This document shows positions 2,775 through 62,690 of a stretch of 64,000 nt of DNA, in pieces. Within the stretch, counting starts at the first letter, position 1; each line of letters opens with the position of its first letter. Under the pieces are notes generated by a model. That model was not told where the DNA came from, made no database searches, and worked only from the letters and a program-made list of their open reading frames with translations. This DNA comes from Diphasiastrum complanatum (lineage: Eukaryota; Streptophyta; Lycopodiopsida; Lycopodiales; Lycopodiaceae), in NCBI GenBank assembly GCA_029204225.1, contig CM055101.1, positions 40,877,961 through 40,941,960 of the forward strand, written 5' to 3'. The translations under genes were made by a program, and so were the position numbers.

Positions 2775-3429
2775 TGTGAAAAATACAGATCCTAAGTGGA
2801 TCTAAACTCCAAGATCATTGGCTTGAATGCTTGCACTCCAAACTACATAAGCTAGGAATTGGCAACACATTCTATGCTACCTAGAATGCAAAGAACTTGA
2901 TCAAAAAGCATTTATCACAAATGGAAACTTCCATAAACATCAAGTGCGGCCCAAAATAGCATTATACAGTCCATAATACATCAGCCTACCACTTTTGGAA
3001 AGCACCTAAGATCATACACAATAGCTTGAAGACAATACACACAACAATGCTCTCAATGGAGGAAGAAACAATGACAATGATCTATTGATCTCAATGAAGC
3101 ATACAAAAGGTTTCTCCAACCTGTTCTCCACGACTTCCCTACTATTTATGGATGAGGAAGATGACTCTCTCTCCTCTCTCTAGAAGGTACTTGACCCTAG
3201 ATATTCCCTATATAGGAAAAATAGCTAAAAATGGCTTATATGACCAAAATACATCAAAATGGTCTCATTTTGAAGGGTATGAAGTTTGACACTTCATCAT
3301 ACTGAAAAAATACAGTAAATAAAAACATTGTGGCCTGGTTCACACGTGTGAAACTCCAGAACCAAAACTATTTACAATTTTAGCCAATTTAGGCCTCAAA
3401 CTAGCTAGGAAATGTTGACAATTTTCACA
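2775..3429 (-). repeat. 3' LTR of the young copia element
   Basis: 655 bases with TG...CA ends, reading the same as 8549-9203. A TATA-like TATATAG lies near 3209-3215 within a short palindromic stretch (ATTCCCTATATAGGAA), preceded by a CT-rich tract (3170-3182). It borders the polypurine tract of the internal region at 3430. Confidence 0.93.
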
Positions 3430-5035: not shown

Positions 5036-5072
5036 TTGCTTTCCTTTTTCATCATAGGTTAGCCTTGATGGC

Positions 5073-21685: not shown

Positions 21686-22005
21686 TGAAGAAACAAAATG
21701 TTTCTAATTACAAAGCTTTGCTAGCTTTCAGCCCTATGCCTGACGAAGATGTTCGCGAACACAAAAGTCAAGAGACACGAAGCACGAAAGTTTCGCGAAC
21801 ACTTGATGAAAAGACACAAACACGAAAGATTCGCGAACCAGAATCTTTTGCGGTCGAGCACGAAAAAGTCAGACGACGAAAACGAAACCAACGACGCGAC
21901 ACGAAAAACGTCGCGAAAGACTTTCTGCCCTCACGCTCCAAAGAGTACCAACGAAGATCATGCAAATACCCAGAAGTACAGATATCTGATCTGATGACAT
22001 GACGT
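21686..22005 (+). repeat. 5' LTR (shared portion) of the older copia element
   Basis: Begins TGAAGAAACAAAATG and is rich in TTCGCGAAC/CGAAC phrases. It aligns without gaps to 25415-25734. Its true right end appears lost in the deletion that also removed the primer site. Confidence 0.8.
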
Positions 22006-22011
22006 CAACAG

Positions 22012-23776
22012 ATACACTATTCACTGCCACAAGAAGGGTCACGCAGCCATGGATTGTCGCCAGAACCCGAGGGACAAATCAGTACAGAACATACAGGAGA
22101 ATAGCAACAGTTCATCCTATGTCGAGGAGCCCGAGAGCTCAAAAATGGACGAAGAAAGAACGAACAAAAATTGTTCGACCGCCTACATCTGTGAAGACGT
22201 GTGTGCAGCGTCAACATTTGACACACATGAGGTGATCCTAGACTCAGGAGCCACCTCACACTTCGTGATATCAGGACGAATAATGTCTGATTTCAGAAGT
22301 GCAGATCCTTTAAGATTCATAGTTCTTGGAGATGGATCTAAGTATCAAGTGAACGGTATTTATTCACTCTGGCTCAACACCAATGGCAGAGACAGACGAC
22401 TCGAAGACGTTCTATTCGTGCCTATTCTGCAACAAGACTTGCTCTCTGTAGCAAGAATAGCAGATGCAAGGATGCGTGTGACGTTTTCTGACGAAGCATG
22501 CAACGTGATTGATGCCAGTACCAGTACATTGATCGCTCAAGACAGAAGGAAAGAAAACCTATATCATATGAAGGTATGCCTGTCTGTAGATCAGGTTCAT
22601 CAGACTCATGATGACCAACCAGACACTCTGTGGCACAGAAGACTATGCCACATGAACTCAATGAAACTTTACCAAGCAAGCCATCATGGAGCAATAATAG
22701 GGGTCAGCATCTCGAATGCAACCAGTTCGACCACCTGTGATGCATGTTTGAAGGACAAGATGTCACGCACTCCATTCATCAAAGACTTCTATAGAATGAC
22801 TAAGATTCTGGAGTTAGTGCATTCTGACATCTACGGACCATTCAACGTGATCTCAATAGGAGGTTCAAAGTATTATATAACCTTCATTGATGACTATAGC
22901 AAATTTGCCAGAGTGTATTTTATTCAGAATAAATCTGAAGCACTTGACAAATTCAGAGAATATGTGAATTGGGCTGAGAGATGTACATGCAACAAGGTTA
23001 AGCAGATCAGGTTAGATCGAGGTGGCGAATACATCTCGAATCGCTTCACTTACTTCTGCAATGATCGTGACATCATTCACAAAAGGACTACAGCCTACAC
23101 GCCGCAGCACAATGGTGTTGCTGAAAGAAAGAATAGGACCCTGATGAAAGCAGCCAAATGCATGATGGCCTACTTGAAGGCTCCAAGGGTACTGTGGGCT
23201 GAAGCAGTAGCTATAGCCGCATACATCCAGAACAGGACAGGTAAGTCTGGTGTCCCTCACACGACACCACACGGGCTATGGTGGGGTAGAAAGTCTAATC
23301 TGTCTCAAGTTAGAATCTTTGGCTGTGCAACTTATGCACACATTCCTGATAAGCTTCGAAAGAAGCTTCATGAGAAACCCGAGCAGAGATTTCTTGTAGG
23401 TTATGACAACAATTCGTCATACTACAAAATCTACATGCCAGACACGAACATTGTGAAAACAGTGAGAGATGTCAGATTTGATGAGAGCAGGACAATGGCC
23501 AATGACGATCCTGTCAGCTATGAAGTTCTGGAGAGACAGTATTATGACCTGCCGCCAATGACAGAAGGAGCAGAGGACGAACACGAAAACAAAGATTTTC
23601 GAATCGTCTCCCATTCGAGCGACGAATCTGAAGAAGAAAGATTCGAGAGGCAGCCTACTGCTACAGTTCCTATAAACCAAGATGGCTTCGGACCGAGCAG
23701 AGCAGACAAAGGCAAAGGCAAAGGCAAAGGCATTGTTGTCCCAGGAGGATCTCCTAGAAGGTCGATAAGACCATGA
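22012..23776 (+). pseudogene. copia partial gag, protease and integrase
   Basis: It begins inside a zinc knuckle (a reading of HCHKKGHAAMDC just before the Met at 22049). The aspartic protease follows with EVILDSGATSHFVIS, then a GAG-pre-integrase block (DTLWHRRLCHMNSMKLYQ). The integrase core has HSDIYGPF, IRLDRGGEYISN and HNGVAERKNRTLMKA, in which the usual S-D-N at the second aspartate reads L-D-R. After the integrase comes an acidic linker and a Lys/Gly run, then TGA at 23774-23776. The next codons continue the same sense toward RT, so this is a nonsense mutation. The 5' end of gag is missing. Confidence 0.88.
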
Positions 23777-24520
23777 AGAGCACCAACAAGATATGTGCTA
23801 GACAGCTCAGCTTCCGTATCAGAAGAGTTCTACGGATTCAGTGGCGAACCACAGACTTTCGAGAAAGCGATTGAAAGTCCAGAAAAGGACAGATGGATCC
23901 AAGCCATGAACGAAGAGATGGAGTCTATGAGGAAGAACCAGGTATGGACGTTGGAGCCATTACCACATAAGCGCAAGACTGTCAAATGCAAATGGGTTTT
24001 CAAGCTCAAATATGGACCAGATGAGAACATCACGAAATACAAGGCAAGACTGGTAGCGAAGGGATTTTCTCAGAGATATGGTATTGACTACTCTGAAACC
24101 TTCTCTCCTGTCATCAAACATTCATCCCTACGTCTGTTATTTGCATATGCAGCAGCTTATGACCTCAGGATCCACATTGTGGACGAGAAAACAGCCTTTT
24201 TGCATGACGAACTAGACGAAGAGGTCTATATGGATCAATCTCTATGATATGTCTCGAATTCACTTTTTGACTATGCATGCAGAATGCATAGAAGTATCTG
24301 CGGTCTGAAACAATCAGCCCAACAATGGTATAAGAAGAAAGATCAAGCCCTGAAATCATTAGGATTCAAGCCTCTGTTGGCTGATTCCAATGTACATGTC
24401 AGAGTTATAGATGGGCAGATCATCATCGTAGCCGTATATGTGGACGACACTCTGATACTTTGCAGGAGTGAGCAGCTAATTGCTGAAGTGAAGACAGACA
24501 TCTCGAATATTTCGAGATCG
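23777..24520 (+). pseudogene. copia reverse transcriptase, first part
   Basis: Same frame as a natural extension of the integrase ORF: MNEEMESMRKNQVWTLEPLP, KARLVAKGFSQRYGIDYSET and the junction DEEVYMDQSL, then TGA at 24245-24247, followed by SICGLKQSAQQWYKK. The catalytic motif is YVDDTLIL near 24437-24460. A single-base frameshift near 24500-24515 moves the remainder to another frame. Fingers and palm are otherwise conserved. Confidence 0.88.
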
Positions 24521-25412
24521 TGGATCTGGGAGAAGCCAGGTGTTACCTAGGCTTACAAATTGAAAGGGACTACGAGGGAGGTAAGCTACACCTTCACCAG
24601 TCCAGATACACCCAGAAGATCCTAGAGGACTTTGGGATGCTGAACTACAAAGGAGCGAATACTCCAATGCTCGCAGGGACGGTGCTGAGAAGTGTTGACT
24701 GTCCGAAGACTGAGGAAGAGAGAGAACAGATCCAGCTCACGCCTTACAGGAAGCTGATAGGATCACTGATGTACAACACACGTCCTGATATTGTTTATGC
24801 AGTATTCATGATGAGCCAATTCTACATGAATCCAGGCTCGACACATTGGAAGATTGCAAAACGCATTTTGCAATATCTTCAATTAACAAGGGATTATGGC
24901 TTGTGTTATTGTCATGATGCAGGTTTCAGGATACTTTTCTACAACGATGCTAGTTGGGCATCTCTCAAGGACGATGGTAAAAGCGTCTCAGGAAGATGCA
25001 CTATCGCATCAGGAGCAGTAGTTCTCTAGGTCAGCAAGAAACAGACCATTGTGGCCCAGTCATCTTGCGAAGCAGAGTACATTGCAACAATAAAAATGGC
25101 CAACGAGATAATCTGGCTAAGGCAGTTCCTGGACGAATTGGACGAAACAAGGAACGAGCCTCTGGTCTTGCAGATGGACAACACCTCTGCAATACACCTG
25201 ACAAAAGATCTCGTGTTCCATTCCAGAACGAAGCACATTGCGATCAAGTACCACTTGATCAGGGATCTAATTGAAAAGAAGATGCTGCAAACCACCTTCA
25301 TCGGAACGAAGGACATGGTTGTTGATATCTTCACCAAAGCCCTGGACAAAGGACTCTTTGAGAGACAGAGGTGTAGTCTCGGGATCGTAAAGCTATCATG
25401 CTTTAAGAGGGA
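24520..25412 (+). pseudogene. copia RT C-terminus and RNase H
   Basis: MDLGEARCYLGLQIERDYEG follows the catalytic region directly. It continues through THWKIAKRILQYLQ to RNase H (SSCEAEYIATIKMANEIIWL; FHSRTKHIAIKYHLIRDLIE), with a TAG at 25027-25029 where VSKKQTIVAQ continues. It ends at CFKREL within the polypurine tract before the 3' LTR. The TAG is explained by a G-to-A change, like the other stops. Confidence 0.88.
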
Positions 25413-25414
25413 GC

Positions 25415-25734
25415 TGAAAAAACAAAATGTTTCTAATTACAAAGCTTTGCTAGCTTTCAGCCCTCTGCCTGACGAAGATGTTCGCGAACACGAAAGTCAA
25501 GAGACATGAAGCACAAAAGTTTTGTGAACACTTGACGAAAAGACACAAACACGAAAGATTCGCGAACGAGAATCTTTTGCGGTCGAGCACGAGAAAGTCA
25601 GACGATGGAAACGAAACCAACGACACGACACAAAAAACGTCGCGAAAGACTTTTTGCCCTCACGCTCCAAAGAGTACCAGCAAAGATCATGCAAGTACCG
25701 AGAAGTACAGATATCTAATCTGATGACATGACGT
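25415..25734 (+). repeat. 3' LTR (shared portion) of the older copia element
   Basis: Begins TGAAAAAACAAAATG immediately after GAGGGAGC and aligns to 21686-22005. The LTR may extend further right, since the 5' copy is cut. A possible TG...CA end near 25850 cannot be confirmed. Confidence 0.8.
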
Positions 25735-40000: not shown

Positions 40001-43000
40001 CATATTATTAGAAGCAGTCAATTCAAATAAATGAAATTCTTTGAGAGCAAGATTTGGAATGCTTACCCGCTATTGTCAACAGCTTTTGCTGCATATTCAA
40101 CTTGGAACACACGCCCATCTGGAGAAAAGGTTGTTACTGATAAATCATACTGTCACAAACCAAATCAAGTGGGTGAATACAAATACACATCATAAGAGCT
40201 TCCAATTTGTGTCTAGCAATCACAAATGGAAACAAGTGAAGGCCACAAATATATCCTACTAGCACCAGTGAAAAACCAAAGCTAGCATAGACACGGCATG
40301 GCTAAAAAGAAATCAAATAGGTGTATCTTCCTGATCCATGAGAATGAGGACATAACTTTTTATCATGTGCTGCCTACACAAACATAAATTTCTTGATCTG
40401 TAGAAAATACAAATCAGCCGCTGTTATAAGAAAATGAACATCCCAGAATGATATATACAGCAACAAGTAGCAAGCCGCCAGAAATGTATTTCAAACGCTG
40501 TCCTTCAACAGCTCATCTACAACTTCAGCTTTCCACATAACAAGAAAAATACTATTACAATGAAGGCATGAAAAAAATTTGATTGATAGAATAGCAAAAA
40601 GGAATCACGACTCCTCCATTTTAGAGACAATTATAATCAAGTATGCACAAGCTTAAATACAATGATTTGGCAATATAACAACTAAACTCATTTGTGAGCA
40701 AATGAACAATAAGCAGGCTAGTAGATCAATAATTGATAGATATTAAACTATGATGATTATGTGCTACTCTATATTTCTGGTCATTATCAATAAATCTATG
40801 GATAAATTATATCTTATGTACATGATTGGTCATGATATCAGCAACATATCAAGAGGTCTTAACCGATTACAGGTCACTTGAGAAAGACTTTGATGGTGAA
40901 TTGCAAATTACTAAACGATTGAGATAAACTTATAAGACTTAAGGAGGGAGCGCTCAGCTGAAAGTTGCAGGTAGTAGAGGCAAAAATAAAAATCTCGAGG
41001 CGAAATCGATAACTCGGAATAAGCTACTGATCACAAAGAGTGAATAAGTGGCCTTGCGCTTTAACATCATTTGTAGGGTGCATGCCTGCTTCTAATTATA
41101 TGCTCAGCACAATAGCTCTAAGTAGACATCAGGTAACCGGTAACATAAGAGAATTGGGTGAGCTGCACCTCTTCCAATCACTAAACATTTTCGCACAAAG
41201 TTATGGACTACTAGGTCCACAGACTGCATGGTATAGTTACCTGAATATGATAATGTATTCTAAGCAACAGCCCAAAGAAGGGGACCGTATATGGCAATTT
41301 TGACTACACATATGGATGAATATGCCACATCATCAACATTGACAATTTTTTGACGTGAAGATCCTTGAATGCCTTGATTGTCAGATTTGAGATTGCAAAA
41401 AAATTCTTGTGTGCCTCCTCATTTAATCCCTTTGTATATATATCAGCTACCATATACTGAGTTCTGCAAAATTTCAGACATACCTTCTTGTTGAGAATTC
41501 TGCATGTTTGTAGTGATACTTAATTTCAATTTGTTTGCTTCTAGAATGGATCTAGGATTCATCGACAGTGCAATAGCACTTTGATTATCACGCTAAATAA
41601 TTGTTGGAGCACTTTGTCTGAGACCAATGTCAGACAATATATTCCTCAACTAGACTGCCTCTTTGGTATCTTGTGAAGCTGCAATGTACTCAAATTTTGT
41701 CGAGGAGTCAAGGACATTGCAATGGAGGTTTCCTTTCAATTGTAGACTATCAAACCATTGTTGAGTAGGAAGATAAATCCAAAATGGATTTTCTTGTGTC
41801 GACATCACCTGCCCAATTTGCATCTATATATCCATGCGGATGGATCAGTCTCTTCATAGCAGATGCAGAGGTTGATAGTAGCTCGAACATATCTTACGAC
41901 TCTTAATAGAGCCTTCTAGTGGATCATTCCAGGACTAGCCATATATTAGCGCAAAGAGGATATCCCTTCATTTCGTCCTTCTCTTCTTTGGTTTGAGGGC
42001 ATTGCTCTTTTGATAATTTAAGACCTGGATCCATAGGAGAATGTACAAGCTTGCAATTCATGAAGTCGAATTTATAAAGCATATTAAAGATATACCTTAG
42101 GTGAGTATGTAGAGGAGCTTCTTGTTTGTCTCTGTGGATTTGGATCTCGAGACAATAATGAGCTAATCCTAGATCTGTCATCAGTGACAATCCAAGTGTT
42201 GTTTTTGATCAACGAGTTGTATTCTTTATCCATAGTTTCCTTCCAAAAATCTGAATCGGGCCTGTGTGAGTGCTTCTTCGACTGTGATTGGCTCCTGTGA
42301 AAGATAGTGAGCATATTCATCAGTGAGCCTGAGGCTGAGTTCGAATTCTGGTAGATCTTCTGGAAGTGCTTCTGGCTGCAAAATTCGATATTGTGTCGGC
42401 TGCTCCTGAGTTGCAGCCATAGTTGCACGAATCGCGGTTCGAACCTCGAACCAAGGTTCGAACCACTCGGAGCCGGTTCAAACCGGGGGAAAACAAAAAC
42501 CCCCAAAAAGCCAAAAAAAAATTGGAAAAAAAAATTCAGTTCGAATCGTTTTTCAGTTTGAACCGTTTTTCGATTTGAACTAGCCCGGCCAGTTTGAATC
42601 GGCCCGATTCGAATCGGCTTGTAACCTTGCAGCAATCTATCTGTGTAAATTGGCTACTTGAAGGAATCCAAATTGCACGATATTCATTAGTATTCGAGAC
42701 AGGAACAACAGGTAGAATCTGGTTCTTGCCCTTTAAGTCGATAAACTGATCTTCAAGAAATGTAACATCCCTACTAGTAAAAACTTTACAGATAACAGGA
42801 TTATACAGTCTATACATGCCATTTGAAGAAGAATAACCGACAAAATTTGTTTTGATAGAATGCTCATCCAGTTTCTTTTTGGTGTCTTTAGGGACATGAG
42901 CATAGGCAATGCATTGCAAAACTTTAAAATGCTTTAACGAAGGTTTGGATCCAGTCCAAACTTCATAAGGATATCGATTCTGCAAATAAGCTGTTGTCCA

Positions 43001-45279
43001 AATAGCATGTTGCCAAAAGGATTTATGCAATGATGCATGAGTAATCATACATTGATTCGACTAAGGTTTTGTTCTTTCTCTTTGCAAGTCCATTGGACTG
43101 AGGAGAATAGGAAGCAGCTAATTGTTGTTCGATACCATTTGTCGAACAATACTCCTTGAATGCATTGAATATGTATTCACTACCATGTCGGTTCTAAGAG
43201 TTTTGATCTTTCTTCTTGTCTGCAGCTCAACATTCTCTTTATAAATTTTGTGCTTCATAAAATAAACAGCAGCTCTTCTCAAATAATCGTCAATAAATGT
43301 AATAAAGAATTTAGCACCAAGTAAAGATGGTGTTTGCATTGGGCCACATATATCTGAATGAATTATGTCTAACAGATATCTAGATACACGTCCTTGATTG
43401 AACTTGAAAGGCCTTCTAGTCTGCTTTCCTATGATACACAACTCTAGCAGACTAGAGAGTCAAAAGTTCAATAATCAAAATCAAGAACTAAAGAGTGTTT
43501 AGACATATTAGCAATAAATACATGATTCAAGTGCCCAAGTCTATAATGCCAAATTAATTTTTTATTGATCAAAACTGAGCTGCTTAAAGCGAGATCAGTC
43601 ACATAATAGCAATGTGTAAGCCGATTCAGATATCCTTGCCTTTTCCAAGTACAAGGACTCTCTTCTCTTTATCGAGAATTTTACAAGAATTTGATCCGAA
43701 TCTACCTTATGTCCTAAATAAGTGATTCTACTGACAGATAGCAGATTGGTTGCCATATTTGGAACATACAATACTTTTGAAATGAGTTTGGATTGTCCAT
43801 GTGGAGGATGAGGATGCACCTTCCTTCGACTCTCCTCCCGCAGCAGCATAGTTATGACTCTAGACAAAGAAAGTTTTGAGTGGGTCGAGGACGGCAGGCT
43901 AGACAATAAGGTCATGACAACACCCGAATCTTCGATGACTGACACTATTGTTGCCATTTGATCAAACAGAGTCTTGAATTGATTGATGTGATTCTGAAAA
44001 AAATCACTTTCTAACATTGAGTGAGAAAAGTTTCTTCCTCGGATGCAGTTTCGAATTGACGTCCCTCACTTCGTAGAGTGGGCTCAAAATGTTCCAAGCT
44101 TCCTTACAAGATTGGGCTCGTCTGATGTGGCTAATTTGCGTCTGATATATTAACGGTGATTAAAGCGAAAGCCTTACCATCCCTGAGCTTCCATTTAGAA
44201 ATGGCTTGCACATCGACACTAGGAAATAGTTCGACACCTACAACTATCTCCTTGGCCATTAGCATGACTTTCATCTTGAATTTTCATAGATGGTAATTTG
44301 ATCCATCGAGCTTGTCTACCATTAGACCAGACTTTGATTGAGAATCCATCAGGAAATTCGAGACAGGTATATGCAAATAGTAGATTGTATGACTTCTAAA
44401 TAGTTTAGTGAATGCTCACTCTGTCGGAACAAGAAATGTTCTGATACTGTATGCTTTGATACCATGTTGGGAATTCGAATGGATGATGAAGTCCTTGATA
44501 CATGAACTACGTCTATCAGATTCGTGCTATCTTCGATAATTCGATGATAGCTCTACTTGATCAAAGCTTCGAAGTCGCGAGGATCGAAACAATTGCTTCC
44601 GTAGACACATACAAATTCATTCAGTAGCGGAAACGTGTAAAACGGATCAGATAAAGAGCATTACAATCAACATACACTATTAGTCATAAAACGATTCAAT
44701 CTACAAATTGTTTACCTGCAAACCTCGACTTAGACGAAACAGAGAATGATGCAAGTGACACGACACGATAATGCACAGTATGTACTTAAACGAATTCAAT
44801 TAGTTTGAAAGAATGTACATGTCCAAATGCTTACAAACGTGTTAATAGATTCGACAATTGCCTTCAGCAATTGCCTTCGATGGTTGGCTTCGATTCAATA
44901 ATTCACCATGCAGACGAATGTTAGCGATTCTCGAGTATTTCTACAAACTATTAGACAATCCCATGTATTTCAGCAGACTGTCAAATAACCTTTGTATTTC
45001 TACAAACTGTGCGACTGTACAAGTAATTATATACAACAAATGAATGGATCTAGATTTGCTATAGGATTAGGGAGAGAGAGGATAATAATCCAACAAATTG
45101 TACTGCACCATTTTGGTGCCTTGTGGCCCAAGATTATATGTATACATATTTTACCACATGTGTTATCTACACAAAGACTATGTCTCAATGGGATGCCAAG
45201 GTTGTTCCTTGAAATTTGCTATGGTTCAATGTGGTTTGCTATGATTTGCGAGGATTCTTTATGATTTCGGATGGATTAA

Positions 45280-46861: not shown

Positions 46862-47990
46862 TGTGGGGGAAGAAGCCTGGTCACGTGCTCGCCAAGACAT
46901 GGCAATTTTCTATAGTAGAATGGTCACTTTGTATATGTGCATGTAGGGGCCTCTAGGCTATGCTCTCTTGAATCACTCTCGCCATCAATGGAGCTTAGAG
47001 ACATGCTCCACTCTCTTGAGTGAGAGACTTTTGCTTGGCCCAACGAATATTTGTAATGTGGTGAATCTTCAAATTTCAATGGTTCAAATTCTCATTAATG
47101 ATGTGCATGTTGTGTCTCTCATACCTTCCCAAAGCATGAACTCTGCTACATATGCGCAAGTATGACCGCCAAGTTACGTCACACGTGTAAACTGATGGAA
47201 AGGCCCCTCCCCTCTGTGCATTTGGCTTCTGTTGTGTGCACATGTATATCCACTTTAATGAAAACTTTGTGCTGGTTTACGGGATTAAAAACCATTGCTT
47301 CACCATATCTCGCAAATATCCCAAATTGATGTGCTACTTAAGGAAATGTCAGTTTCCCTTTACATGCCTAGAAGATGTGAGGGCCCTCCACCATCCAAGG
47401 ATGAGAAACCGAGGAAGCCAGAGGAAGGTTGATGGATGCTAAAGGTAGCTCGATCGAATGTTGGTAGCAAGTTGTAGCCTCCATATATGTCCTTAATGAC
47501 ACACGTTGGACATAGAACCCGTTATCTTCAACACAATGTGGTGCAAAGTCATTACGGGATATTAGAACTCAAAATGGGCCCTTTGTCAAGATGTTGTTTT
47601 TGACTTCGCACGCTTTCAACGCTTATGTGTCCCAATGAATGGTGTCCATCTGTGACGAACTATAACAGTGGTTGACGAATTGTATTTAACTTTCTCAGCC
47701 AAATTTTCGTGATTTTCAAATATCCCGAGGGGCAGAACAAACAATTGTGATTGGACCACAGTTACTACCCGAATACTCTTATGTTGCCCGTCATTGTTCA
47801 CTCGAGGCTGATTTGACATCAATAGTCATAAACTGTAATTAACTAATCCTTGTAGTTAAGGAACTTCTTGTCATTCATAGGCATACCTCTCATTTTCTTC
47901 ATTCTATCTCTCATTTTCTTGTCATTCTTAGGTTTACCTCGCAATTACTACATTCTCTCCGATCTCAGCTTGCGTACTCGTATTTTCGAC
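46861..47990. other. No gene seen
   Basis: About 1.1 kb upstream of PAG1 and before the unusual AT-rich block. Nothing coding or structured can be supported. It would contain the distal PAG1 promoter. Confidence 0.35.
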
Positions 47991-47992
47991 TA

Positions 47993-49327
47993 ATGGCTAC
48001 ACATAATCGGAGACCAAGAGGGAACCATTGATGCAATCAATATTTGCAATGAAAAAAATGCAGAAGATCAATGGATACCAAGAAGATATCGAAAATACCA
48101 ATGGATCTTGATGCATTCCTCTGCAAAAGGCTCATTCCGAAAAAGAAAAAGATTGGATAACATCTATAGAAGCTCTTGGAAAGGTAGGATAATGGATTTT
48201 AAAGTATCACCTGCCGGTCAATCTATCACGGAAGTTTTAGTTCAGCATGCTTATATTCACAATGAGCTCAACATTCATGATCTGAATCCAAATGATAGAA
48301 GGAAATGCAATTGTACGTTTTCAGATTCAATTTCTTTAGATTTAGCATTTTCTTTAAATTATATTTTTCATGAGATGTTTTTGTTGGTTTTGCAGATTTG
48401 TATCCATCAAATTTCGTTGAATGGCAATCAATTCAATCGATTGCAGGAATAATCGATGTCATACATTCGGATATCGGTATTTTACAATATAAAGGTCGTT
48501 CTCCAAAATCACTTTTAGAGTCAGGCGTTTTTTTTTTATGATCACACCTATTTTCCTGATAAAAATGGTTTAGTTGGTAGATTAGAGCCATATCCTCTAC
48601 CAGATTTTTTGAACGAGGATGCAACAATTTCAGAAAGTTTTCGATCTAGGCTATATATTGATATTCAGAGTATATTAAAATGTAGCACTGGATCAAAGAA
48701 TAATAGATTAAGTTGGTATCTACCTTTTACTATTTTTGTTGATTTCTTTTCCAAATGCAATGTTTGGCAAACGAAAACAATGTTTATTTATAAGGACTTG
48801 AGTGCTGATATAATCGCCGAGTTGTTGGATGATGGTTGGGATACAAAACAAAATCAGCAAGTTGAGTGCAGAGTATGTTACTCAATTATGACATTTAAAT
48901 ATCACATCAAAAAACAAATGCTCACTTTGCTGCTGTATTATAGAAGATGGATTAAATGCAAAAATGTTTGGAAGCCACTTGATCAAGATTTTGGTATAAA
49001 CCCTCAAGAGCAACTTCAGATAACAGTGAAAAGAAATGACAACATTCTTGCAATGGTTGATGTCAAGGAAGATTGGTGTCTCAATCACATTCGATCAGAA
49101 CTAGACATGTTGCAATTCGATCTACCTCAGTACTATCAATTTTTCAATGGTGTAAAGGTACGTTAGCCATATAAAAATATTCATTTTTTTCTATTTTTAA
49201 GTGAATCGGTTTCATAAAATATATAACTAAAACAATTTCTCTTGTGCAGGTAAGAGTAAGGCAGGAAGAGCATATAAATGCAAAGACATTAAAACATCCA
49301 TCGAAATTGAAAATCCATAGATTATGA
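47993..49327 (+). pseudogene. Unknown multi-exon protein A with a ubiquitin-like C-terminal segment
   Basis: Start ATGGCTACACATAATCGG at 47993, then a basic N-terminal part (WIPRRYRKYQ; SFRKRKRLDNIYRSSWKGR; VSPAGQSITEVLVQHAYIHN). An acceptor TTTTGCAG near 48397 precedes DLYPSNFVEWQSIQ. After a shift in a T-run near 48530 it continues DFLNEDATISESFRSRLYID, LSWYLPFTIFVDFFSKCNVW and VCYSIMTFKYHIKKQMLTLL. The C-terminus QLQITVKRNDNILAMVDVKE, ELDMLQFDLPQYYQFFNGVK has the spacing of a beta-grasp/ubiquitin-like fold. An intron 49160-49248 (GT-AG) leads to the last exon, RVRQEEHINAKTLKHPSKLK, and a stop. I do not recognise the family. It is convergent with the histone-like gene on the other strand. 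Confidence 0.45.
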
Positions 49328-49399
49328 ACTATGGAATTTTGTATTATGTAATACAATTTTTTGTATACATCATTTTTGAAAATATATGAGCCACTTTTT

Positions 49400-49560
49400 C
49401 TATGAGGCTCTTTCATTTCTATGATCTCCATTTCCATGGTGCAAAAGACAATGTAATTGTAACTGGATAATATGAGTTTTCGATAGCAAGATTCATTGTC
49501 TCCTACAGGAAATGCACTATCTCCATTGGGGAGATCTTCAGTCACTTGAACTCCAGTGAT
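49400..49560 (-). pseudogene. Duplicate of the last exon of the histone-like gene
   Basis: The minus-strand reading has SPMEIVHFL, stop, then ETMNLAIENS and a later MEMEIIEM. It parallels SPMEIMHFRQETIKLVIENS...EMDLEIIDS in the exon at 50137-49994. Nucleotide phrases such as ATCTCCATTGGGGAGA are shared. This is a second, decayed copy of that exon beside the 3' end of protein A. Confidence 0.5.
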
Positions 49561-49993
49561 CACTACAATCGACGCTTGCCCTTGTTGATGTCTCATATAT
49601 ATTGGTTGTATTTTTGGTCTTCATTGTCTTGGTCTGTATTGTCCTTGTCTTGGCATATTTGGATATGTTCAGAAGATGAACTGATGAAAGCTTTGTTCTA
49701 ACAAATCTAAGTTTGTCGCATGTTTGGATTGGTTGTGGCAAAGGTTCCATCAGATCATCTTTCTGAACTTATCCAAAAAAAAACCATGGTAAAGGCAAGG
49801 CAAACCAAGGCTATGAAAAACAAACATGTCGAAAAACCGTAGAAGTTGATGATGAATGTATCATAACCTGAATTAATAACAGGAAAAAAAAAAAAAGTAA
49901 GAACAACCATTGAAAAACTGTAAATATATTTCTATAAAAAATTTCTATACATGTGTCTCATCCACATCAAGTGAGACGAATATTTAATCAGTA

Positions 49994-51984
49994 TCAACTA
50001 TCTATGATCTCTAAATCCATTTCTCCAGTTGGAAGTAGCTTGGGTGGAGAACACTCGGCCACTGCAATTGGATGTGAATTTTCAATCACAAGCTTTATGG
50101 TCTCTTGCCTGAAGTGCATTATCTCCATTGGGGAGACCTTCGGACATTTAAATTTGAAAAAAAACATACACACAGTTAAATGTAATTATTCAAAGATCAG
50201 TTAATAGGAATTTGAATATGAAAAAAAGCAAAAACACAATTAAAAGTAATTAATTGAAGATTACCTCTTCCAGATTTGGAAGTCCATCTTGTAATGCAAG
50301 CCAATTAAAGAAGTGTTTGGCAATGCATACGGTATACCAACGACAGCTGATTGAATCAACCTGCTGGGAGGATTGCAAAAATCCAAATTTTAACATTATG
50401 AGATATCGGATCAAAGCGCAAGATGTAAGAATAAAATCTACAACGGAAACAAGTGCGTATCGAACCGATATAAAAAAAATTGATTGAATATCGGACCAGC
50501 GCGCACGTTATGATAATAATCCAATCAATAACTACAAGGGCGCGTCGAACCGATGTTGAAAAATTTATACCTCTGCATCAACCATTTTCAGCTTCGAATA
50601 TGCTTTTGCATTTGGTACTGGAAAGAGTTCCAGTATTTTCTGTATATGGGTCCTGGCAATTTTGTGTGTGTGTGTGTGTGTGTGTAATAGAGTTCATTTT
50701 TAAACAAACTGGATTACACACACCCTCATCATTGACGTACAAGGACAACACATATAAGCTCCAATGATTACTGAAGAATCAATGTAAAATCAAAAAATTC
50801 AAGAAAATAAAATCTGAAAAAAAAAAGACACTTACTTTGTTATGTATGGCAGCACAAGAATTGGAGTATCCAGTCTGACGTATTGGAACATATCATTGTG
50901 CAGACTTTTAAAATCAGGAAAATCAAATGCAGCCATGAATTGAAGGGGAAACAATGCAACATCTATAAACAATGGGGTCTGGAAGAACTCCATCCAGTAC
51001 TGAATTGCCCCACCTCCTACATTGTCCCCTAGTTTCTAATTCACCTAGTATCTAAACTAGAAAGGGGGAGACCAGCATTGGTCTTTGGCATCCTAAAACT
51101 GTATCGAGGACCTAAACCTTTAAGATACGTGTTTAACAATTGGTCATATTGTACATATTGAGGAGTATTTACAAAGGCAAGTGCAGGGGGTGACGGAAGT
51201 AATACCTGATAAACCACATAAAGAATTGTCATTCAAAATTGAATCTACCTTTACACTAACAAAATCATCTAAATCGCTTCCAAGAACAGGAGGAGAGGAA
51301 CTAATATCTATAGGTTTAGGAAGAGGAGGAGATTTAGGAGGTGGAGAATTATTAGGAGAGGAAGATTTAGCAGGAGAAGTTAAAGATGGAGTGAGAGGAG
51401 AAGAAGGAGACTTAGGAGGAGAATTATGAGGAGAATGCCTAGAAGAAAGAAGAGTATTCATAGGAGATGGCTTGGAAAACTCCCTCGCTTTAAATAGACG
51501 GTCAAGAGACCTCCTCTTCTTTGAAACACTCCCGCTCTGGGTTGGATGAGATTGCTTTCATTTTTTTCTCTCTGAATCTTTTTTTGGAGGAGAGGAGGGA
51601 GCAGGTCTAAAGTGTTCAGCAAACTTGTCATATGTGTCCTGAAGCCTGAACACAATGTTGAAATCCTTGGGCATGATGGTCACCCTCTTGGCATGGATAG
51701 CTGCAACAACAATATCTGAAAAAAAATTCACCTGAAAATCCTCATATGTTGTGTACAGTGCCTCAATTGCCATTACAGTCCATCTCACATCTAGATAGAC
51801 TGCTAAGATTATTTGTCTTCTGAAGCTTCCAAATATCCTTGAGCCAGGGTGGGTCTCTTCTTTTGCCCCTTGGCCTAGGAGGTAGTGGTGGTGGATGAGG
51901 TGGTGGTTGTGGATTTTCCTGACCCGCACCTGAAATTGGTATTCCACCTGAATGCCCTCGTGCTGTCTGCTTGGTCAGCGCCAT
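49994..51984 (-). pseudogene. Histone H3-tail and H3-fold chimeric protein (CENH3-like features), multi-exon
   Basis: Starts at 51984 with MALTKQTARGHSGGIPISG, a close match to the H3 tail (A-R-T-K-Q-T-A-R-K-S-T-G-G). A Pro-rich segment and RPRGKRR follow, then an alpha-N-like WLKDIWKLQKT. About 35 bases are missing where alpha-1 should be, which shifts the frame. The H3 core resumes ungapped: LDVRWTVMAIEALYTTYEDF, then AAIHAKRVTIMPKDF. R-W-T, E-D-F, Q-K-T and K-D-F recall CENH3, while MPKD is H3-like. One TGA at about 51555 interrupts, then KKRRSLDRLFKAREF and a Ser/Pro-rich region follow in the same frame to about 51200. Further exons: about 51190-51055; 51015-50836 (AIQYWMEFFQTPLFIDVALF); 50360-50265 (CRWYTVCIAKHFFNWLALQD); 50137-49994 (stop). 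The H3 similarity is clear. Function is inference. Confidence 0.6.
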
Positions 51985-53560
51985 TACTGTGAAGTAGCGG
52001 ATCAGCACGCAATAATGTTGATTTTAGGATCAGACCTCAGGTTGGCCGCGTCGAAGCAATACCTGAGCTCAACAAATCCGTTAGCTGGTAGCAGATGGGC
52101 GCGAGCGAGTAGTAACGGATTGAAGGAAGTTGTTTTTGAGCGCGCTGAATCGATATCGCATGGATGCAAATAACTATAAGCAAAAAAATTTCAACGTCGT
52201 CGATCAGTATATATGGAAAAAATAAGAAATGATTGCAAACGTGGTGATTTGGATATCCGAGGTTCAGATTACGATGATGATTACCCATAGGCTTGTCAAT
52301 CAAATCAATCTAAATATCCATCAATCATTAAAATGATTAGTCCATACAAGAAATAATTTCAAATAAAGAATGGTCACATCTACAATTAATGCTACAAAAG
52401 TATACTATCACACTTCTACCATTAAATGCTGAAATTGACAATGTTAAGCTTTAAATATCAGACCTTTTTTTATATCCAATAATTATAATTTTGAAAAATT
52501 CCGAAGGCCAGATTTTCACCTGATAGCTAATCAACGCGCATATAAAGCATTTGAAAACCAGAGTATGTATTCTCATGCGCTCATCCGATATTGGACGGAA
52601 TATGAATGATCAGAGCTTGATTTGATAGATTCTGCATAACTTTGGCCAGTATGAAGAGTCTTCCGAATCAAGCTTTGATCATGCATATAGGGTCCAATAG
52701 TTTCAAAATTTTCAATAGTATTTTGGTCCTGGAATAGCGATTCGACGTGCGCAGTCCAAATGCAGTAAATACATCATCTGCCAAGCGCGCTGATCCGATA
52801 TCTCATATGCAAAAAAATCATACTGGAACACATAATGAAAGACTTATGAAAATGTTCTGAATGAACGTTATCTCAAAAGAAAAAAATTTGTCTTTACGGT
52901 GCTTAAATAGGATGAGAGATTGAAATAATTCTCCTCGTACATGTTTTTCAATGATATCCATTAATCATTTGTTTATAATTTTTTTAATGATTATTCTAGA
53001 AGGCTAGTGATTGTCTATTTAATGTATTCCGACGTAGGTACATATTCTCGGGTCAGGGCTAATGAGGATTCATTGAATCTAGTGATAGACTAGTTAATGT
53101 ATTCCGGCGTAGGTACAAATTTGTCTCACTCTGATTGGTGGATAAATATATTGAATCTAGTGATAGACTAGTTAATGTATTCTGGCGTAGGTACAAATTT
53201 TTCTCACACTGATTGGTGGATAGATATAGGCTGTAAATTTCAATTCATTATTTGACAAATGTATGGTTGTGATCAACAGGAATTGGCTATAAATATGTGC
53301 ACCACTTTCTATATTTCGATTCCGTGATCTTTTATTCTGAACTCTCTAGCCTTCTTGTTTTTTTTTTTTTCATTCTCGCGATATCGAATCGACGCGCGCC
53401 ATCCCTTGTTGTGCATGCTCGTATTCATTCAGACGCGCTGAATCGATATCAGCCATCTCCGACAACAACTTTTCAGAAAATTTCATTCTCAATCTCAGCG
53501 CGTGTACTTTACTTTATTCCTCTACCGATATTTATCTGTCGCGTTGAACCGATATCGGAT
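50401..53560. repeat. Dispersed 18-bp motif family, GCGCGCTGAWYCGATATC
   Basis: Both orientations recur in otherwise AT-rich DNA. Clear cases are near 50401 (GATATCGGATCAAAGCGC), 50486 (ATATCGGACCAGCGCGC), 50541 (GCGCGTCGAACCGAT), 52000 (GCGGATCAGCACGC), 52139 (GCGCGCTGAATCGATATC), 52578 (GCGCTCATCCGATAT), 52785 (GCGCGCTGATCCGATATC), 53380 (GATATCGAATCGACGCGCG), 53433 (ACGCGCTGAATCGATATC) and 53540 (CGCGTTGAACCGATATC). Several flank the starts of the histone-like gene (51984) and of protein B (53566). They could be transposase or regulator binding sites. There is no array periodicity. Confidence 0.6.
53003..53231. repeat. 79-bp tandem repeat, about 2.8 copies
   Basis: The unit starts near TGAATCTAGTGATAGACTAG and includes TTAATGTATTC, GGCGTAGGTACAAATTT and TGATTGGTGGATA. 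Copies lie at 53075-53153 and 53154-53231, with a more diverged one at 53003-53074. It lies between the two divergent gene-like units. Confidence 0.75.
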
Positions 53561-53565
53561 TCAAT

Positions 53566-55045
53566 ATGGCTAGTTCTTCCATGGCCTCAGATGACAAACT
53601 TATGGATTTTTTTTAATGCCAGTGACATTCCATCTGACAAATTAGAGTATTTTGCTAGTATTTTTTTTTTAACCCTTCGATGTCGATAAGCTAGTTTATG
53701 ATAATCGTTATAATTTAATTTCTTATCTTGATAATTTTTTTCAGATTATTAGTACTCATGTTTTGGATATAGATAATTTCTGTTTCGTTCATTTTCAGGA
53801 CCTTGTACATTCCCAACCATCCTGTAAGCATAAACACAATATATACTATGATATCCACAAAAGAATATGTCGCCTTCTAATCAAAGGAATGGCTTTTGTC
53901 TTCTACATATCTACTGAAATTTCAGATGATGAGTCTGTTGGATCTTCAACTGTTCCATTGATCGAAGCATCTGCACCTGCTCCAGTTGATGTAAATGATG
54001 CAGATATTGATATAGGGGTTGAAGCTGAAGCTACTATGGCTTCAGATTATAAAAAAATTCTTCCTCGTTCTATAATCCTCTCTGATTCTCTTCCATTTGC
54101 ATCTCTGTCAATTAATTAACTCTACTCGATGTTCTTTTATATTTTATAAATAATGAATGTTATATTTCATATAATGATATAGAAGATGTATTGAATTTGA
54201 GAGAGGATGAAATCCTCTCAATTTTTGCTTAAAATTTATCAGAATTTTTTGACATTGTTGATTACTCATATGATGACCTTGAAAGTGAGATAGATTATGA
54301 TAAAGATGGCAATTGGAAATCTGGCAATGAGACCTTGGAGGCCATGATTGAAAAATCTAAAGCCTATAAAGAAACTTTGCCTACAGAGGGAGAATTTTTG
54401 GAATTTCAAAAATAATATTTCCCTAGGACTAGATATATCCCCTCCGGAAATGTAGAGGCCATTGGAGGACATGACATCAACAAAGCAAACGTCGTTGATT
54501 ACGATGATTATGATCTGGTAAGTAGATATTATATTGGTATTGATATTGTTCAGTTTTCTTATTGAGTTTGCAGTGTTATGTAATTTATTTTCTTTTCTCA
54601 TTTACAGGATGCTATTGAAATAGATGCCTTTGGTATGAGACATGGAGGCGTCCGAGGTGTATCAGCCGGGAGAAAAGATGTTTCTCTATCTCATTATTTG
54701 AAAAACTTTCAAAATAATGAGATTTGTATATATCATTCATCTTATAATCCATATGCAACCACTGTCATTATGGCCATCAAATCATTATCAGTTTGTTTAG
54801 GAGGCCATAAGTACGCAAGAGGAACATATTAAATAATTTTTGTGAAGAGATATTTGGCTATTAAGATATTGGGTTATACTCTTAATGAGACTACGAAAAG
54901 ATTATCTGCAATGGCCCTTTATTCGAGTTACATTGATATGAGCAAGAGGAAAAATTTAGAATTTTTAGATCCATATGAAAGGAGATTATTCCTTCATGAC
55001 AATACCATCCGTCTGAATCTTGAAGAGGATGATGATGATAATTAA
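53566..55045 (+). pseudogene. Unknown multi-exon protein B, acidic
   Basis: ATG at 53566 reads MASSSMASDDKLMDFF. After a T-run indel near 53615 it continues NASDIPSDKLEYFASIF, with a second shift at a T-run near 53665. Later segments: DDESVGSSTVPLIEASAPAP and EAEATMASDYKKILPRSI; then, across stops, NLREDEILSIFA, YSYDDLESEIDYDKDGNWKS and NKANVVDYDDYDL. After an intron at about 54519-54608 come DAFGMRHGGVRGVSAGRKDV, NNEICIYHSSYNPYATTVIM, LNETTKRLSAMALYSSYIDM and YERRLFLHDNTIRLNLEEDD, then stop at 55045. Highly acidic, with no domain I recognise. The coding sense is strong despite the breaks. It diverges from the histone-like gene across 1.6 kb holding the 18-bp motifs. Confidence 0.4.
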
Positions 55046-55074
55046 ATAATTTTCTGTAATAATTTTTTGATATA

Positions 55075-57735
55075 TTACAAGGATCTCTCTTTTGTAATGA
55101 ATTTAAATGCCTTTTGAAATATCGTAATACTTGGCGAGTTTTTAGCTTGATATCTAAATTTTGCTCTTCTGTAAAACCACTGAAAAAGTTGAACTAAATA
55201 TTTATTTCTTGAATTGTGTCCTCCATGATTTGTTGCTCTATGAAATGCTCCCCTTGCTTGCCAATGAGATTTTTCCATGTCTTGTGATGACCAGATACTT
55301 AAGCTCTCATATTCCTTTGCAAAATAAGTTGTATGATGAAGAAGGATGTGCTGCAAACAATAGTTTTGATTAGTTACATCAGTAGAAAAAAATATAAGCT
55401 TGAATGAGAATATTACCAGATAATGATATAGATTAGCACCATGTAATAAGTAACATTGTTTTTTCCCCAACAATCATGTACAAATTTTACAAATGTGGTG
55501 CAATGATTTTGCAAAGTCCTCATATCTTCTGATGATAGGTTTTCTTTCCTGATAACACCTATGAGTTTGTCTAAATTGGTCCACACTTGTCCTTTTTCCA
55601 CGCGATTACTTCCTTCCAGTGTTCGTGTGGCTTGAACAATTTCTCTTCATATTTCATATCTGACACTTGATTCTTTGCATGTGTGATTGGATAAGAATCT
55701 TCTTGCTTTAGCACCTCCAATTGATGGCTTATTAGGAACGTTTCCTTTTTTTCCGGAGAGTCTGTCACTTTTTTCAATCGTGACATTCCCTTTATGTAGT
55801 CTTGCATTTGACAGAACTATATCCAACCTCCTAATTGCTACTTTAGCCACTGACTCTAATTTATGATTCCATGCTAGTAGAATATGCAAGTAAATTAGTT
55901 TTACAATAATACGAACCTCAGCATGCAATGTGCATATGTGAACATATTTCAATGGAATTGGCAGAACACTTTTCATATTTGGATCTTTAGCTTCTCGTGT
56001 TGGGCCGGTGTTTGTTGATCATCCCAAATTCATATTGTAACAATCCTTCATGCAATAAAGACATGGATGCTTTGATGTTGCCCCATGAGAGACATTATAC
56101 ATACATTTTAATGTTTTCAAATCCCCTACAAGGTGCCATTGAACTTAAAAACTTCCATGGTTTTCGATTGTAAATTTCTCACCCTCCAAATGTCTCTTTA
56201 TAATCTCGCCATAATTTGTCCTTGAAAATATCCATGATAGTATTTTATGGTCCTCTTTCAAGACTTGTAGAAAAACAAGTAATGCATAACATGTCAATAA
56301 AAACTGGCAAGGTATGAATTGTTAATATAGATATTCTAAATGAAAATGGAAATGTATATCTGGAATGCCACCAACCACCATATGTGATTTTTCGATTGAA
56401 CACTAAACGTTCGATCATCTGTATCTGAAATTTTGTTCATCAAAGTGACACTCACACGTTCCAACTTCTGACCCTTGATGATTTCAGATTCATCCAATTT
56501 TATTACAATAATGATCTTTCCATTTACTTGATGTTCGTCTAGTTTATAGAATCAAATAATGTATTTTAGAACATTTTCAATATCAAGGAAAATATTATTG
56601 CAATCGTTGTAATTGAGCTCACAATATTCTGATTTATATAATTCAGTTATATGAAGTGGTTGGCCAACTACTTTGAACATTCCGTCATTATAAAAATTCT
56701 AGCTAATCTTACTCGATATGGACGCGGAAGATTAATTTTCTTCACCATCACTTGGGAAAAAACTTTTTTAACTATTCTAAAAAAATAGAATAAGCATTTC
56801 TGTTAATTCCAGATAATTACATGCACCTTGTATCACATTCGCATCCAAGTATAATTGAACCTTAATCAAAACAGTCTCTACAATTTCATTTTTCATTTTT
56901 TCAAACTGAGCATTTTTTATCATTTCCTTTGCTGACTTTCTTGGTAAAACATGACTTAAAGATGATCCAATGCATGAACGATCTGTTAAATAGTTTTTTG
57001 CCACCAAACATGATCTGCAGCAAACATATGAAACTCAAATTATGTTTAATAAATAAATAATCCATGTTATCAGTGCAAATCAAACCTAAATGACATATAC
57101 AAATCAAATAAACAGTCTAGATGACAACATACTTGAATGTTCGAATTCTTTTTTTCTGTGTGTAGATAGGTCATCAATATTCTTCATCAGTACTCTCTTT
57201 CTTTTCCTCTTCATCATTGTGTTATTGATAACTTTTAGATCAACATCAGACTTTAAACTCTCGGATCGCAACTTTTCCATGGATTCTAATATTTCTTGGT
57301 TTGATTCTCAAAGAGTAGTGATAGTAGCATTCAACTCTGACATAGCATTCTTGAGTGCATTGTTTTCAGCACTAGTGTGTTGCACATAATGAAGCAATTG
57401 TTGATTTGCACGTTGTAATTGTTGATTCAGACAATATATGCTATGCATTCCAATATCATGCAACTTTTGACAATATCCAAATAATCCGCTATTTCCTTCA
57501 CATACATATCTGAGAAGATGAGTTACGGACTTAAAATCTGGACACAAATTGGTAGCTGGATCATTAGGATAAATTGATCCATCCACCCACAAATCTATAT
57601 TCATATGATCATTCATTCTCAATTCTCTAACTATTGCTGCAGCATTCTCTAAAACTTTTGCATTTTTCTTAATAATTGGAGTGCATTCAACATGCAAATG
57701 GAACATTGCCATTGTTAAAGCTACAATCATGTAAA
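55075..57735 (-). pseudogene. Unknown multi-exon protein D; candidate transposase-like family
   Basis: Minus-strand exons, approximately: 57730-57134 (basic and coiled-coil: NQQLQRANQQLLHYVQHTSA, ENNALKNAMSELNATITTL, stop, ESNQEILESMEKLRSES); 57015-56777 (SCIGSSLSHVLPRKSAKEMI; VQLYLDANVIQGACNYLELT); 56712-56385 (FKVVGQPLHITELYKSEYCE; IIIVIKLDESEIIKGQKLER); 56275-55920 (VLKEDHKILSWIFSRTNYGE; WHLVGDLKTLKCMYNVSHGA, then HPCLYC; VLPIPLKYVHICTLHAEVRI); 55919-55390 (GNVPNKPSIGGAKARRFLSN; VWTNLDKLIGVIRKENLSSE); 55385-55075 (SIWSSQDMEKSHWQARGAFH; HRATNHGGHNSRN). Several in-frame stops. The pattern of spaced acidic residues (KLDES, VGDLK), a CxxC and a downstream Asp/Glu region would fit an RNase H-like nuclease, but that is inference. 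Confidence 0.4.
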
Positions 57736-58892
<1,157 letters not shown>

Positions 58893-61184: not shown

Positions 61185-62690
61185 ATGAGTCAGGTTTTGG
61201 TAGACAAATATGTTCTTGACGTGGAGTCGGACATGCAGACAGCTAGAAAGTCATTGGTGAGTTTTGGGTTTAGGGTCCTCGATGTCGATTTTGATTCATC
61301 TCCATTGTTTCGCGAGGAGATGTTTGTCGACAAGAACCCTTCAGAGGTTGAAGTTGACATTGAGAGATTGAACGTGGATTAGCGAAAGATTTTCGACCGT
61401 GTAGTACGTGAGCATGTTGTTCGAAGAGTGGGTGGAGGTAGATGGACCGGGTGGTATAGGCAAGACACACTTGTATGGTGTCATGTTGTCATACGTGCAT
61501 GCACAAGGGTAGAAAGCATTGGCAATTGCATCACGTGGGATTGTTGCACTATTGATGAAAGGTGGTAGGACCGCACATTCTTGGTTTAAAATTCCTCTGA
61601 CGGAATCGAATGAGAGCTCGACATGCAACATCTCTAAGCAATTTGCGCTAGGTACGCTTTTGATGGCATGTCGACTCATCATTTGGGATGAGGCTCCCAT
61701 GGCGCCTAAGTATACTATAGAGTGTGTGGACCGATCTCTGCGAGATATATTGAGTATCGATGCTCCATTTGGAGGAGTTCCAGTTGTTTTCGGGGGTGAT
61801 TTCCGATAGATTCTACCAATGTACTACGTGTTAGTCGTGCGTAGATTGTCAATGCTTCACTGAAGTGTTTGCGTTTGTGAAAAAACATGGAGGTGCACAA
61901 ACTAACAAAGAACATGCACGTCATGGGTGTGGAGGGTGGCGATAAGGATGTTGAGGTTTGTAGATTATTTGTTGAGTGTGGGAGATGGTCGTGAGCCCAC
62001 ATTCGTGCATCGCGATTTGGACCTGATCATGTGCCTAAGGACGTCTGATGTGGACGAATTGATTTCATTCACATTTTTCAATGTTGCATGGCGTTTTATG
62101 AGATCATGCGAGGGTTGTTGAGCAGCTTCTGTGACGTTTGCACTTTTTATAGTGTCGATAGTGTTGTTGAGTGTGAGGGCTCTAATGTGCACCCTGTAGA
62201 GTATTTGAATAGCCTGCAACCGAGTGGATGTCCTCCATATAAGTTGGTGTTGAAGTTTGGAATGATTGTGATGTTGTTACAATCGATAGCATCGCACAAG
62301 GGATTGTGCAATGGCACAAGATTGATCATCCTTAGATTAGGTAGACTGGTCATAGAGGCGGAGATAGTGATCGGAAAGAATATAGGAAGTAGAGTCCTTA
62401 TTTCATGTATCCCTATAGTGCCAAGTGATTCGAACATATTGTTTGAATTGCAAAGGTGTCCAGTTTCCTATCAGAGCAACATTTGCCATGACAATAAACA
62501 AAGTACATGGGCAAACTATGGACATGATTGGATTGTATTTGCCTCGGCCTGTATTTAGCCATGGGTAGTTGTATGTTGCACTATCGAGAGTGCAAAATGC
62601 AACAAGTCTTCGTGTGTTGATTACTGACAAGGACAATCTATTTACGGATGTGGATGGACTGACGAGGTACACTCAGAACATGGTGTATTC
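61185..62690 (+). pseudogene. Helitron Pif1-type helicase, decayed
   Basis: The plus strand, with several frameshifts and stops, reads as the C-terminal helicase of a Helitron Rep-Hel. Walker A is GPGGIGKTHLYG near 61444-61480. It is followed by IASRGIVALLMKGGRTAHSW, FKIPLTESNESSTCNISKQF, Walker B LIIWDEAPMAPK near 61674-61710 and GGVPVVFGGDF. After a gap come [57 protein letters not shown] and a final VALSRVQ-like region across frames near 62570-62600. There is no Rep domain or clear Helitron terminus in the window. It is inactive. Helitrons replicate as rolling circles and often capture gene pieces. Confidence 0.8.

Follow-up and report, generated by a model that had tools for sequence, protein, structure and literature searches.

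On the minus strand of a 64,000-nucleotide stretch of the Diphasiastrum complanatum genome (hereafter the window; C10:40877961-40941960 of a 1.745 Gb genome in 5176 contigs, which our own-genome searches covered), we found a broken gene for a predicted fusion of a histone H3-like protein with a Ulp1/C48-like peptidase domain, lying within a mobile element (Table 1). The gene begins with an ATG at 51984, reading MALTKQTARGHSGG, and its last exon stops at a TGA at 49994. A preliminary description of the window had recorded on this strand an H3-like start, the alpha-N-like segment WLKDIWKLQKT and an H3 alpha-2/alpha-3 core, all of which we located where it had placed them. It had assigned these, together with the basic KKRRSLDR motif, to a single frame. 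This holds for KKRRSLDR, which shares the frame of the core, albeit beyond a stop, but not for the start and the alpha-N segment, which lie together in another frame, because the start at 51984 and that of the core's open reading frame (ORF; 51974-51561) differ by a number that is not a multiple of three. The core, VRWTVMAIEAL...AAIHAKRVTIMPKDFNIVFRLQDTYDKF, scored above the cut-off of the Pfam Histone profile (PF00125; 2.3e-9, 38.0 bits, cut-off 26.4), bearing out the proposed H3 homology, and matched H3 chains of the PDB from 1.7e-8. Downstream, KKRRSLDRLFKAREF and a Ser/Pro region occupy the minus ORF 51557-51147, and further frame breaks follow. Most of alpha-1 is lost here and is present in the relatives L053 and L055 (LLIPKSHIQR[ST]IRQVTRSLS). 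With its frame breaks, its stop and this loss, the window copy is dead, as the description had supposed.

Better preserved copies, which the description had proposed to look for, do exist in the same genome. In locus L016, four hand-placed exons with GT-AG borders joined into an open reading of 470 amino acids that passed the Pfam cut-offs for both Histone (97.3 bits, 1e-27) and Peptidase_C48 (PF02902; 42.2 bits, 1.1e-10, cut-off 20.7) in hmmscan, and the C48 part alone matched the Ulp1-type PDB chains 6dg4 (5.1e-4) and 1euv (7.3e-4). A hand-made profile of the Ulp1 part, small and partly composite, matched L015, L019, L025, L027, L053, L054 and L055 and, more weakly, L023 (2.8e-9); in the window it matched the minus ORFs beginning at 50778, 50507 and 50185 (5.4e-27, 3.8e-15 and 1.9e-6), Ulp1-like pieces in which a Pfam scan on their own found no family. 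Similar exons occur in L075 and L076, and the catalytic His, Gln and Cys of Ulp1 can be read in L016, L075 and L076. The C-terminus, described earlier as Pro/Ser-rich and non-histone, is indeed non-histone but not featureless, as its later exons match the Ulp1/C48 catalytic region in relatives. We also examined whether an ordinary processed H3 copy might simply be followed by exons of an unrelated gene; this reading fails, because the order H3, linker, Ulp1 recurs in the families that we call B, D (L053 and L055) and E (L075 and L076), with a weaker trace in C. As predicted from sequence, the accessory gene is thus composed of an H3-like start, an H3 fold, a basic, Pro/Ser-rich linker and a Ulp1/C48-like domain. 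Among the literature matches listed, none described an H3-Ulp1 fusion in a transposon, in a survey that was partly aimed elsewhere and had most subscription papers outside it.

The H3 likeness of the window gene is not due to chance: besides the Pfam and PDB matches, scoring 150 of 6094 candidates in this genome yielded 173 matches. A Pfam histone search, with 150 of 6325 candidates scored and counts therefore being lower bounds, gave 13 matches at 163.7-165 bits, which were canonical H3 in the five loci read (L001, L002, L004, L006 and L007), followed by a drop to matches of at most 109.5 bits, of which many lie in long open frames (up to 417 amino acids). Twenty of these loci, selected for the length of their frames and for spread, were retrieved with 9.9 kb each; an H3-type frame is present in every one of them, because they were picked for it. 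By sequence, the relatives sorted into at least five families: A (14 loci), with the tail, a long Q/P-rich insert and an H3 core mostly ending RRERN; B (L015, L016, L019, L025 and L027); C (L023); D (the window and L052-L055); and E (L075 and L076). Upon comparison of one core each with the H3 of the same genome, identities were 53% for A, 52% for B, 47% for C, 43% for E and 39% for D. The relatives L016, L009 and L075 scored 97.3, 101 and 87.8 bits against PF00125, and a piece of L055 alone gave 18.2 bits, under the cut-off. In a 15-row core alignment (H3 position numbers being our own mapping), E97, D106, H113, R116, T118, K122 and D123 were invariant, also in the window core, and R83 and K115 were kept in at least 90% of rows. 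In L052:1057-2730 (+) (C4:56565508), a 558-amino-acid open frame runs from the H3-like part into a copia-like integrase and reverse transcriptase, as a nested insertion; by eye, we read it as a chimera with a copia-like retroelement and rejected it as a genuine fusion.

The region of the H3-like tail was present in all 14 family A loci, with ARTKQTAR exact in 7, one residue off in 6 and interrupted by a stop in L021. Family D tails carry one difference each (MARTKQTTR in L052, MAWTKQTAR in L053, MVRTKQTAR in L054 and MALTKQTAR in the window), and the pattern search did not find the tail of L055. Both family E members read MARTKQTAR, the family C tail reads MARTESTAR and that of family B MDRRKQT. 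In A, C, D and E, resemblance to the H3 tail goes no further than R8, so that a counterpart of H3 K9 is absent.

Table 1. Features of the mobile element in the window, with the basis of each assignment.
Feature	Position	Strand	Basis
Whole mobile element, 10.6 kb, terminal inverted repeat (TIR) to TIR	47550..58138	.	TIRs at both ends, genome-wide TIR motif counts, gene content common to families A, B and C
Left TIR, CATTACGGGATATTAGAACTCAAAATGGGCCCTTT	47550..47584	plus	Same layout at ends fetched elsewhere; start and end similar to family B TIR
Conserved element gene "gene T", function unassigned, several pieces	47994..49163	plus	tblastn to L016, L027, L026, L011, best E 4.6e-52
Broken gene for H3-Ulp1 fusion protein	49994..51984	minus	Own ORFs, Pfam match, better preserved relatives L016, L053/L055, L075
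Remnant exon pieces of the Ulp1/C48-like domain and of the preceding segment (...ILVLPYITK, NHWSLYVL...LKMNS, SCRWYTV, MEIMHFRQE...)	49994..51035	minus	Hand-made profile
Basic patch KKRRSLDRLFK and Ser/Pro-rich linker	51147..51557	minus	Similar linker in L053, L054, L055; no Pfam family
H3 core from loop 1 to alpha-3, without most of alpha-1	51642..51794	minus	PF00125 over residues 61-111 of ORF 51974-51561
Alpha-N-like segment WLKDIWKLQKT	51814..51846 (about)	minus	Frame of the H3-like start; WLKDIRKLQKT in L053
H3-like start MALTKQTAR (H3: MARTKQTAR)	51958..51984	minus	L075 and L076 read MARTKQTAR
Conserved element gene "right1", pieces	53673..55042	plus	tblastn to L016, L027, L011, L026, L023
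Putative transposase gene, broken	55078..57754	minus	tblastn to L016, L027, L011, L026, L023
Right TIR, reverse complement CATTAGGGAAAAATATGGGCTCAAAATGGGCTCTTT	58103..58138	minus	Same layout at ends fetched elsewhere

The gene belongs to a multi-gene element with TIRs and many copies, in line with the earlier proposal of a mobile-element protein. Counting an inner motif of the window-type (family D) TIR, CTCAAAATGGGCYCTTT, gave 864+856 (1720) matches in the genome and 0+0 for the reversed control, and a family B TIR pattern gave 695+715 (1410), with 0 for its reversed controls; these counts are of ends rather than elements and may also mark shorter derivatives. In family B, the element of L016 is about 8.7 kb long and is bounded by a perfect 35-bp TIR. 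No target-site duplication (TSD) was seen upon comparing by eye the flanks of ten end pairs (family B: L029/L016, L043/L044, L045/L046 and L047/L048; family D: L059/L060, L061/L062, L063/L064, L065/L066, L069/L070 and the window), only one of which, L047/L048, shares 3 bp; except in L029/L016 and the window, the two ends of a pair were assigned to each other solely from their distance and orientation, and L067/L068 was left out because its right end is without CATTA. Family B TIRs are dense at C1 64.97-66.68 Mb (28 of the 100 matches listed, all on C1), where one flank is common to all ten fetched copies (L033-L042), and another flank is common to the three copies fetched from a second cluster (L049-L051). 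Because the fetched copies share flanks, we take such clusters to be amplified segments and not many insertions, and hence we rejected the C1 cluster as evidence for centromere targeting. A 7 kb stretch from that cluster (L032) contains only short simple and minor tandem repeats. A second dense family B TIR cluster lies at C1 95.5-98.4 Mb (18 of the 100 matches listed) and, from the shared flanks of its fetched copies, is likewise read as amplified.

The neighbours of the H3 gene, namely gene T, right1 and the putative transposase gene, are alike in the window, L016, L011, L023, L026 and L027 by tblastn. A Pfam scan of gene T found no family. We call the large gene a putative transposase because it is abundant and shows, by eye, a D, D, CxxC, H...E residue pattern; a 213-amino-acid piece of it from the L027 paralogue was matched by all 150 scored candidates of 11533. 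Pfam scans yielded no family for its three window pieces and none, or matches under the cut-off, for the pieces of relatives; its alignment gave 0 matches in a PDB profile search and, in viral contigs, 24 pattern matches of which 0 were confirmed. The window element is probably a decayed copy of a plant TIR DNA transposon with four conserved genes, and the anatomy of the element and its fusion gene is very probably as described here. Compared with L016 (family B), L011 (family A) has right1 and the H3 gene in the opposite orientation with respect to the putative transposase.

Selection estimates, made from few copies and from pairs that are not independent within a pool, point to constraint on the core along some branches, with recent copies drifting. 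The constraint is clear for L016 versus L027, whose cores differ with dN 0.037 and dS 0.507 (nonsynonymous and synonymous divergence; dN/dS about 0.07), the other parts of the same pair giving 0.133/0.275 (0.48) for the linker, 0.048/0.155 (0.31) for the pre-Ulp segment and 0.034/0.077 (0.44) for a transposase piece. Between families A, B and C, dS of the core was saturated and dN was 0.35-0.51. Pooled core pairs gave a ratio of replacement to silent change (pn/ps) of 0.43 in family A (14 copies) and 0.21 in family B (4 copies), the latter value being due to the pairs with L027. For the pre-Ulp segment of family D, three pairs gave dN/dS of 0.27 to 0.55.

The four element cores compared are 39-53% identical to the H3 of the same genome and 42-47% to Arabidopsis CENH3 (a reference sequence entered by hand). 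In a 12-row tree, a split with 87/85 support separates families B, C and D from family A, H3 and two CENH3 rows; three rows of the tree are long branches, its CENP-A and Arabidopsis CENH3 sequences were entered by hand, and, because the forks between the families are weakly supported, it is too weak to name H3 or CENH3 as the source. The CENH3 gene of this genome was not recognised in the searches, the best 13 matches being the canonical H3 places and others (47-56% identity) scoring like element copies. The element proteins share with H3 and CENH3 variants the H3 fold, a core with 39-53% identity to the H3 of this genome and an N-terminal ARTKQTAR or a close form of it; they differ in that the tail likeness does not extend beyond R8 (A, C, D and E), that a linker and Ulp1-like domain follow (B, D and E) and that a mobile element encodes them.

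Two known systems, fungal hAT elements and plant Mutator-like elements (MULEs), each share one half of the H3-Ulp1 finding. The hAT elements of Dothideomycete fungi, with a hAT domain and an 8-bp TSD, carry H3-like sequence (471 elements and 784 H3-like copies in P. fijiensis), mostly truncated and affected by repeat-induced point mutation (RIP), according to the parts of PMC6710886 consulted. As here, a TIR DNA transposon carries H3-like sequence and has multiplied it, but those parts contain 0 occurrences of Ulp1. In the elements described here, several families join H3 to a Ulp1-like domain, the scanned ORF pieces have no hAT match and the ten end pairs show no 8-bp TSD. Conversely, non-TIR plant MULE/VANDAL elements carry Ulp1 genes (KIU), and an anti-silencing role of VANDAL elements is discussed in the portion of the review PMC13317346 consulted; portions of PMC10398659 and PMC5735166 likewise describe plant MULEs with Ulp1, some of them anti-silencing. 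The likeness is thus that of a plant DNA transposon with an accessory Ulp1-domain gene for which an anti-silencing role is discussed, while the word "histone" has 0 occurrences in that review, and the present element has TIRs and no MuDR-type transposase among the Pfam matches of its scanned ORF pieces.

CACTA elements begin with CACTA. The TIR described here begins with CATTA, and the D, CxxC, H...E residue order of the putative transposase resembles, by eye, that of CACTA/EnSpm (CMC) transposases (PF02992). The difference is that hhalign against three PF02992 loci of the same genome gave a probability of 0.2% and hmmscan gave no PF02992 match; CACTA membership was rejected, though a distant relation may exist given the shallow profiles (Neff 1.3 and 1.1). 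A 3-bp TSD, as in CACTA elements, was shared by eye in just one of the ten end pairs. Many PF02992 transposase matches lie close together at C1:48.58-50.20 Mb, perhaps in an amplified region.

Gene capture from the host is known in transposons, and anti-silencing factors are among the products of some plant elements. For the present gene we consider a chromatin-directed anti-silencing role plausible, and rank it ahead of roles as a passenger, in targeting or as a decoy. The H3 fold could pair with host H4 or with H3 chaperones, or the tail could bind readers or erasers of H3K4, and either contact would bring the Ulp1-like domain to chromatin, where it might act on silencing proteins by removing or binding their SUMO or a similar modifier; in this way the element would gain expression, or access for its transposase, much as in the anti-silencing role of VANDAL elements, some of which have Ulp1. 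The preliminary description had proposed H3 mimicry as a means of entering chromatin or recruiting readers or writers of H3K4, roles that the element protein may have. Taken whole, the explanation of a four-gene TIR transposon whose H3-Ulp1 fusion is delivered to chromatin against silencing has, in our estimate, about an even chance of being right. Its most specific form, with an H3 mimic that becomes part of host chromatin or docks on it and a Ulp1-type protease that strips SUMO-like marks from silencing complexes, so that the element would counter silencing through its own histone variant, is a tentative and somewhat doubtful proposal. Several observations weigh against the explanation as a whole. 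None of the 14 family A loci matched the hand-made Ulp1 profile at E up to 1, and the C48 cut-off of 20.7 was reached only by the joined exons of L016, single exons giving no match in L053 and 13.6 bits in L075. The acid position of the Ulp1 triad reads Asn (MNS versus DS in Ulp1) in L016, L053, L075 and L076, by eye and with an unclear phmmer alignment there, so that Ulp1 activity may be lost or altered. An in-frame upstream ATG (MSEEMA...) was present in all nine family A copies checked, and the family A tail may for this reason not be a free N-terminus; among copies outside the 15-row alignment, H113 is replaced by Tyr in L053 and K122 by Gln in L075. Recent copies look unconstrained, as the three B pairs without L027 hold 8 silent and 26 replacement core changes, and in family D most core comparisons (ten pairs over a short stretch, three over a longer one) show dN near or above dS. 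Finally, dS between L016 and L027 is higher in the core (0.51) than elsewhere in this pair (0.08-0.28), hinting at recombination.

The simplest competitor, that a captured host H3 was amplified with the element as a passive passenger without a role, as in the fungal hAT elements with their mostly truncated, RIP-affected copies (PMC6710886, in the parts consulted), would account for the stops in many copies of this genome and for the recent B and D pairs without clear constraint. We nevertheless think it unlikely, as the domain is kept in five diverged families with invariant H3 positions in 15 rows, as the linker and Ulp1 part follow it in B, D and E, and as the core of L016-L027 has a dN/dS of about 0.07. 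A part in integration, in which the H3 fold or the ARTKQTAR start would tether the transposition complex to centromeric or H3K4-marked chromatin, and so guide the choice of targets, and the Ulp1 part would be structural, was suggested by the CENH3-like residues noted in the preliminary description and by the dense TIR cluster at C1 64.97-66.68 Mb, but becomes improbable given that all ten copies fetched from this cluster share one flank, that the 12-row tree gives no well supported CENH3 placement and that element copies among the matches listed lie, by eye, on many contigs. We give equally little credence to the H3 part acting alone on host chromatin or the silencing machinery, as a decoy that would sequester chaperones, readers or modifiers, with a dispensable Ulp1 part: family A, which keeps the H3-like start, the core and long open frames without a detected Ulp1 part, and the Asn that occupies the acid position of those B, D and E copies that were read would fit it, yet B, D and E retain the Ulp1 part, whose His, Gln and Cys can be made out in L016, L075 and L076. 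If the chromatin-directed anti-silencing role is true, a histone variant would be added to the means by which selfish DNA acts on chromatin. The fusion also provides a natural way to learn what an H3 bearing a foreign C-terminal domain is capable of. The H3 copies of these elements can also mislead histone annotation in the Diphasiastrum complanatum genome.

Elsewhere in the window, we observed further traces of mobile DNA. A Pif1 2B helicase domain at 62049-62555 (+) (PF21530, 4.8e-15) is perhaps a piece of a Helitron, and an SH3_retrovirus domain at 42539-43060 (-) (3.4e-25) belongs to a Ty1/copia-type retroelement. Two more Ty1/copia-type retroelements, at 3428-7391 (-) and 21998-25506 (+), were recognised by eye from motifs only, and a weak RVT_1 match (0.0019, under the cut-off) with a GIPMG motif lies at 1405-1971 (-).
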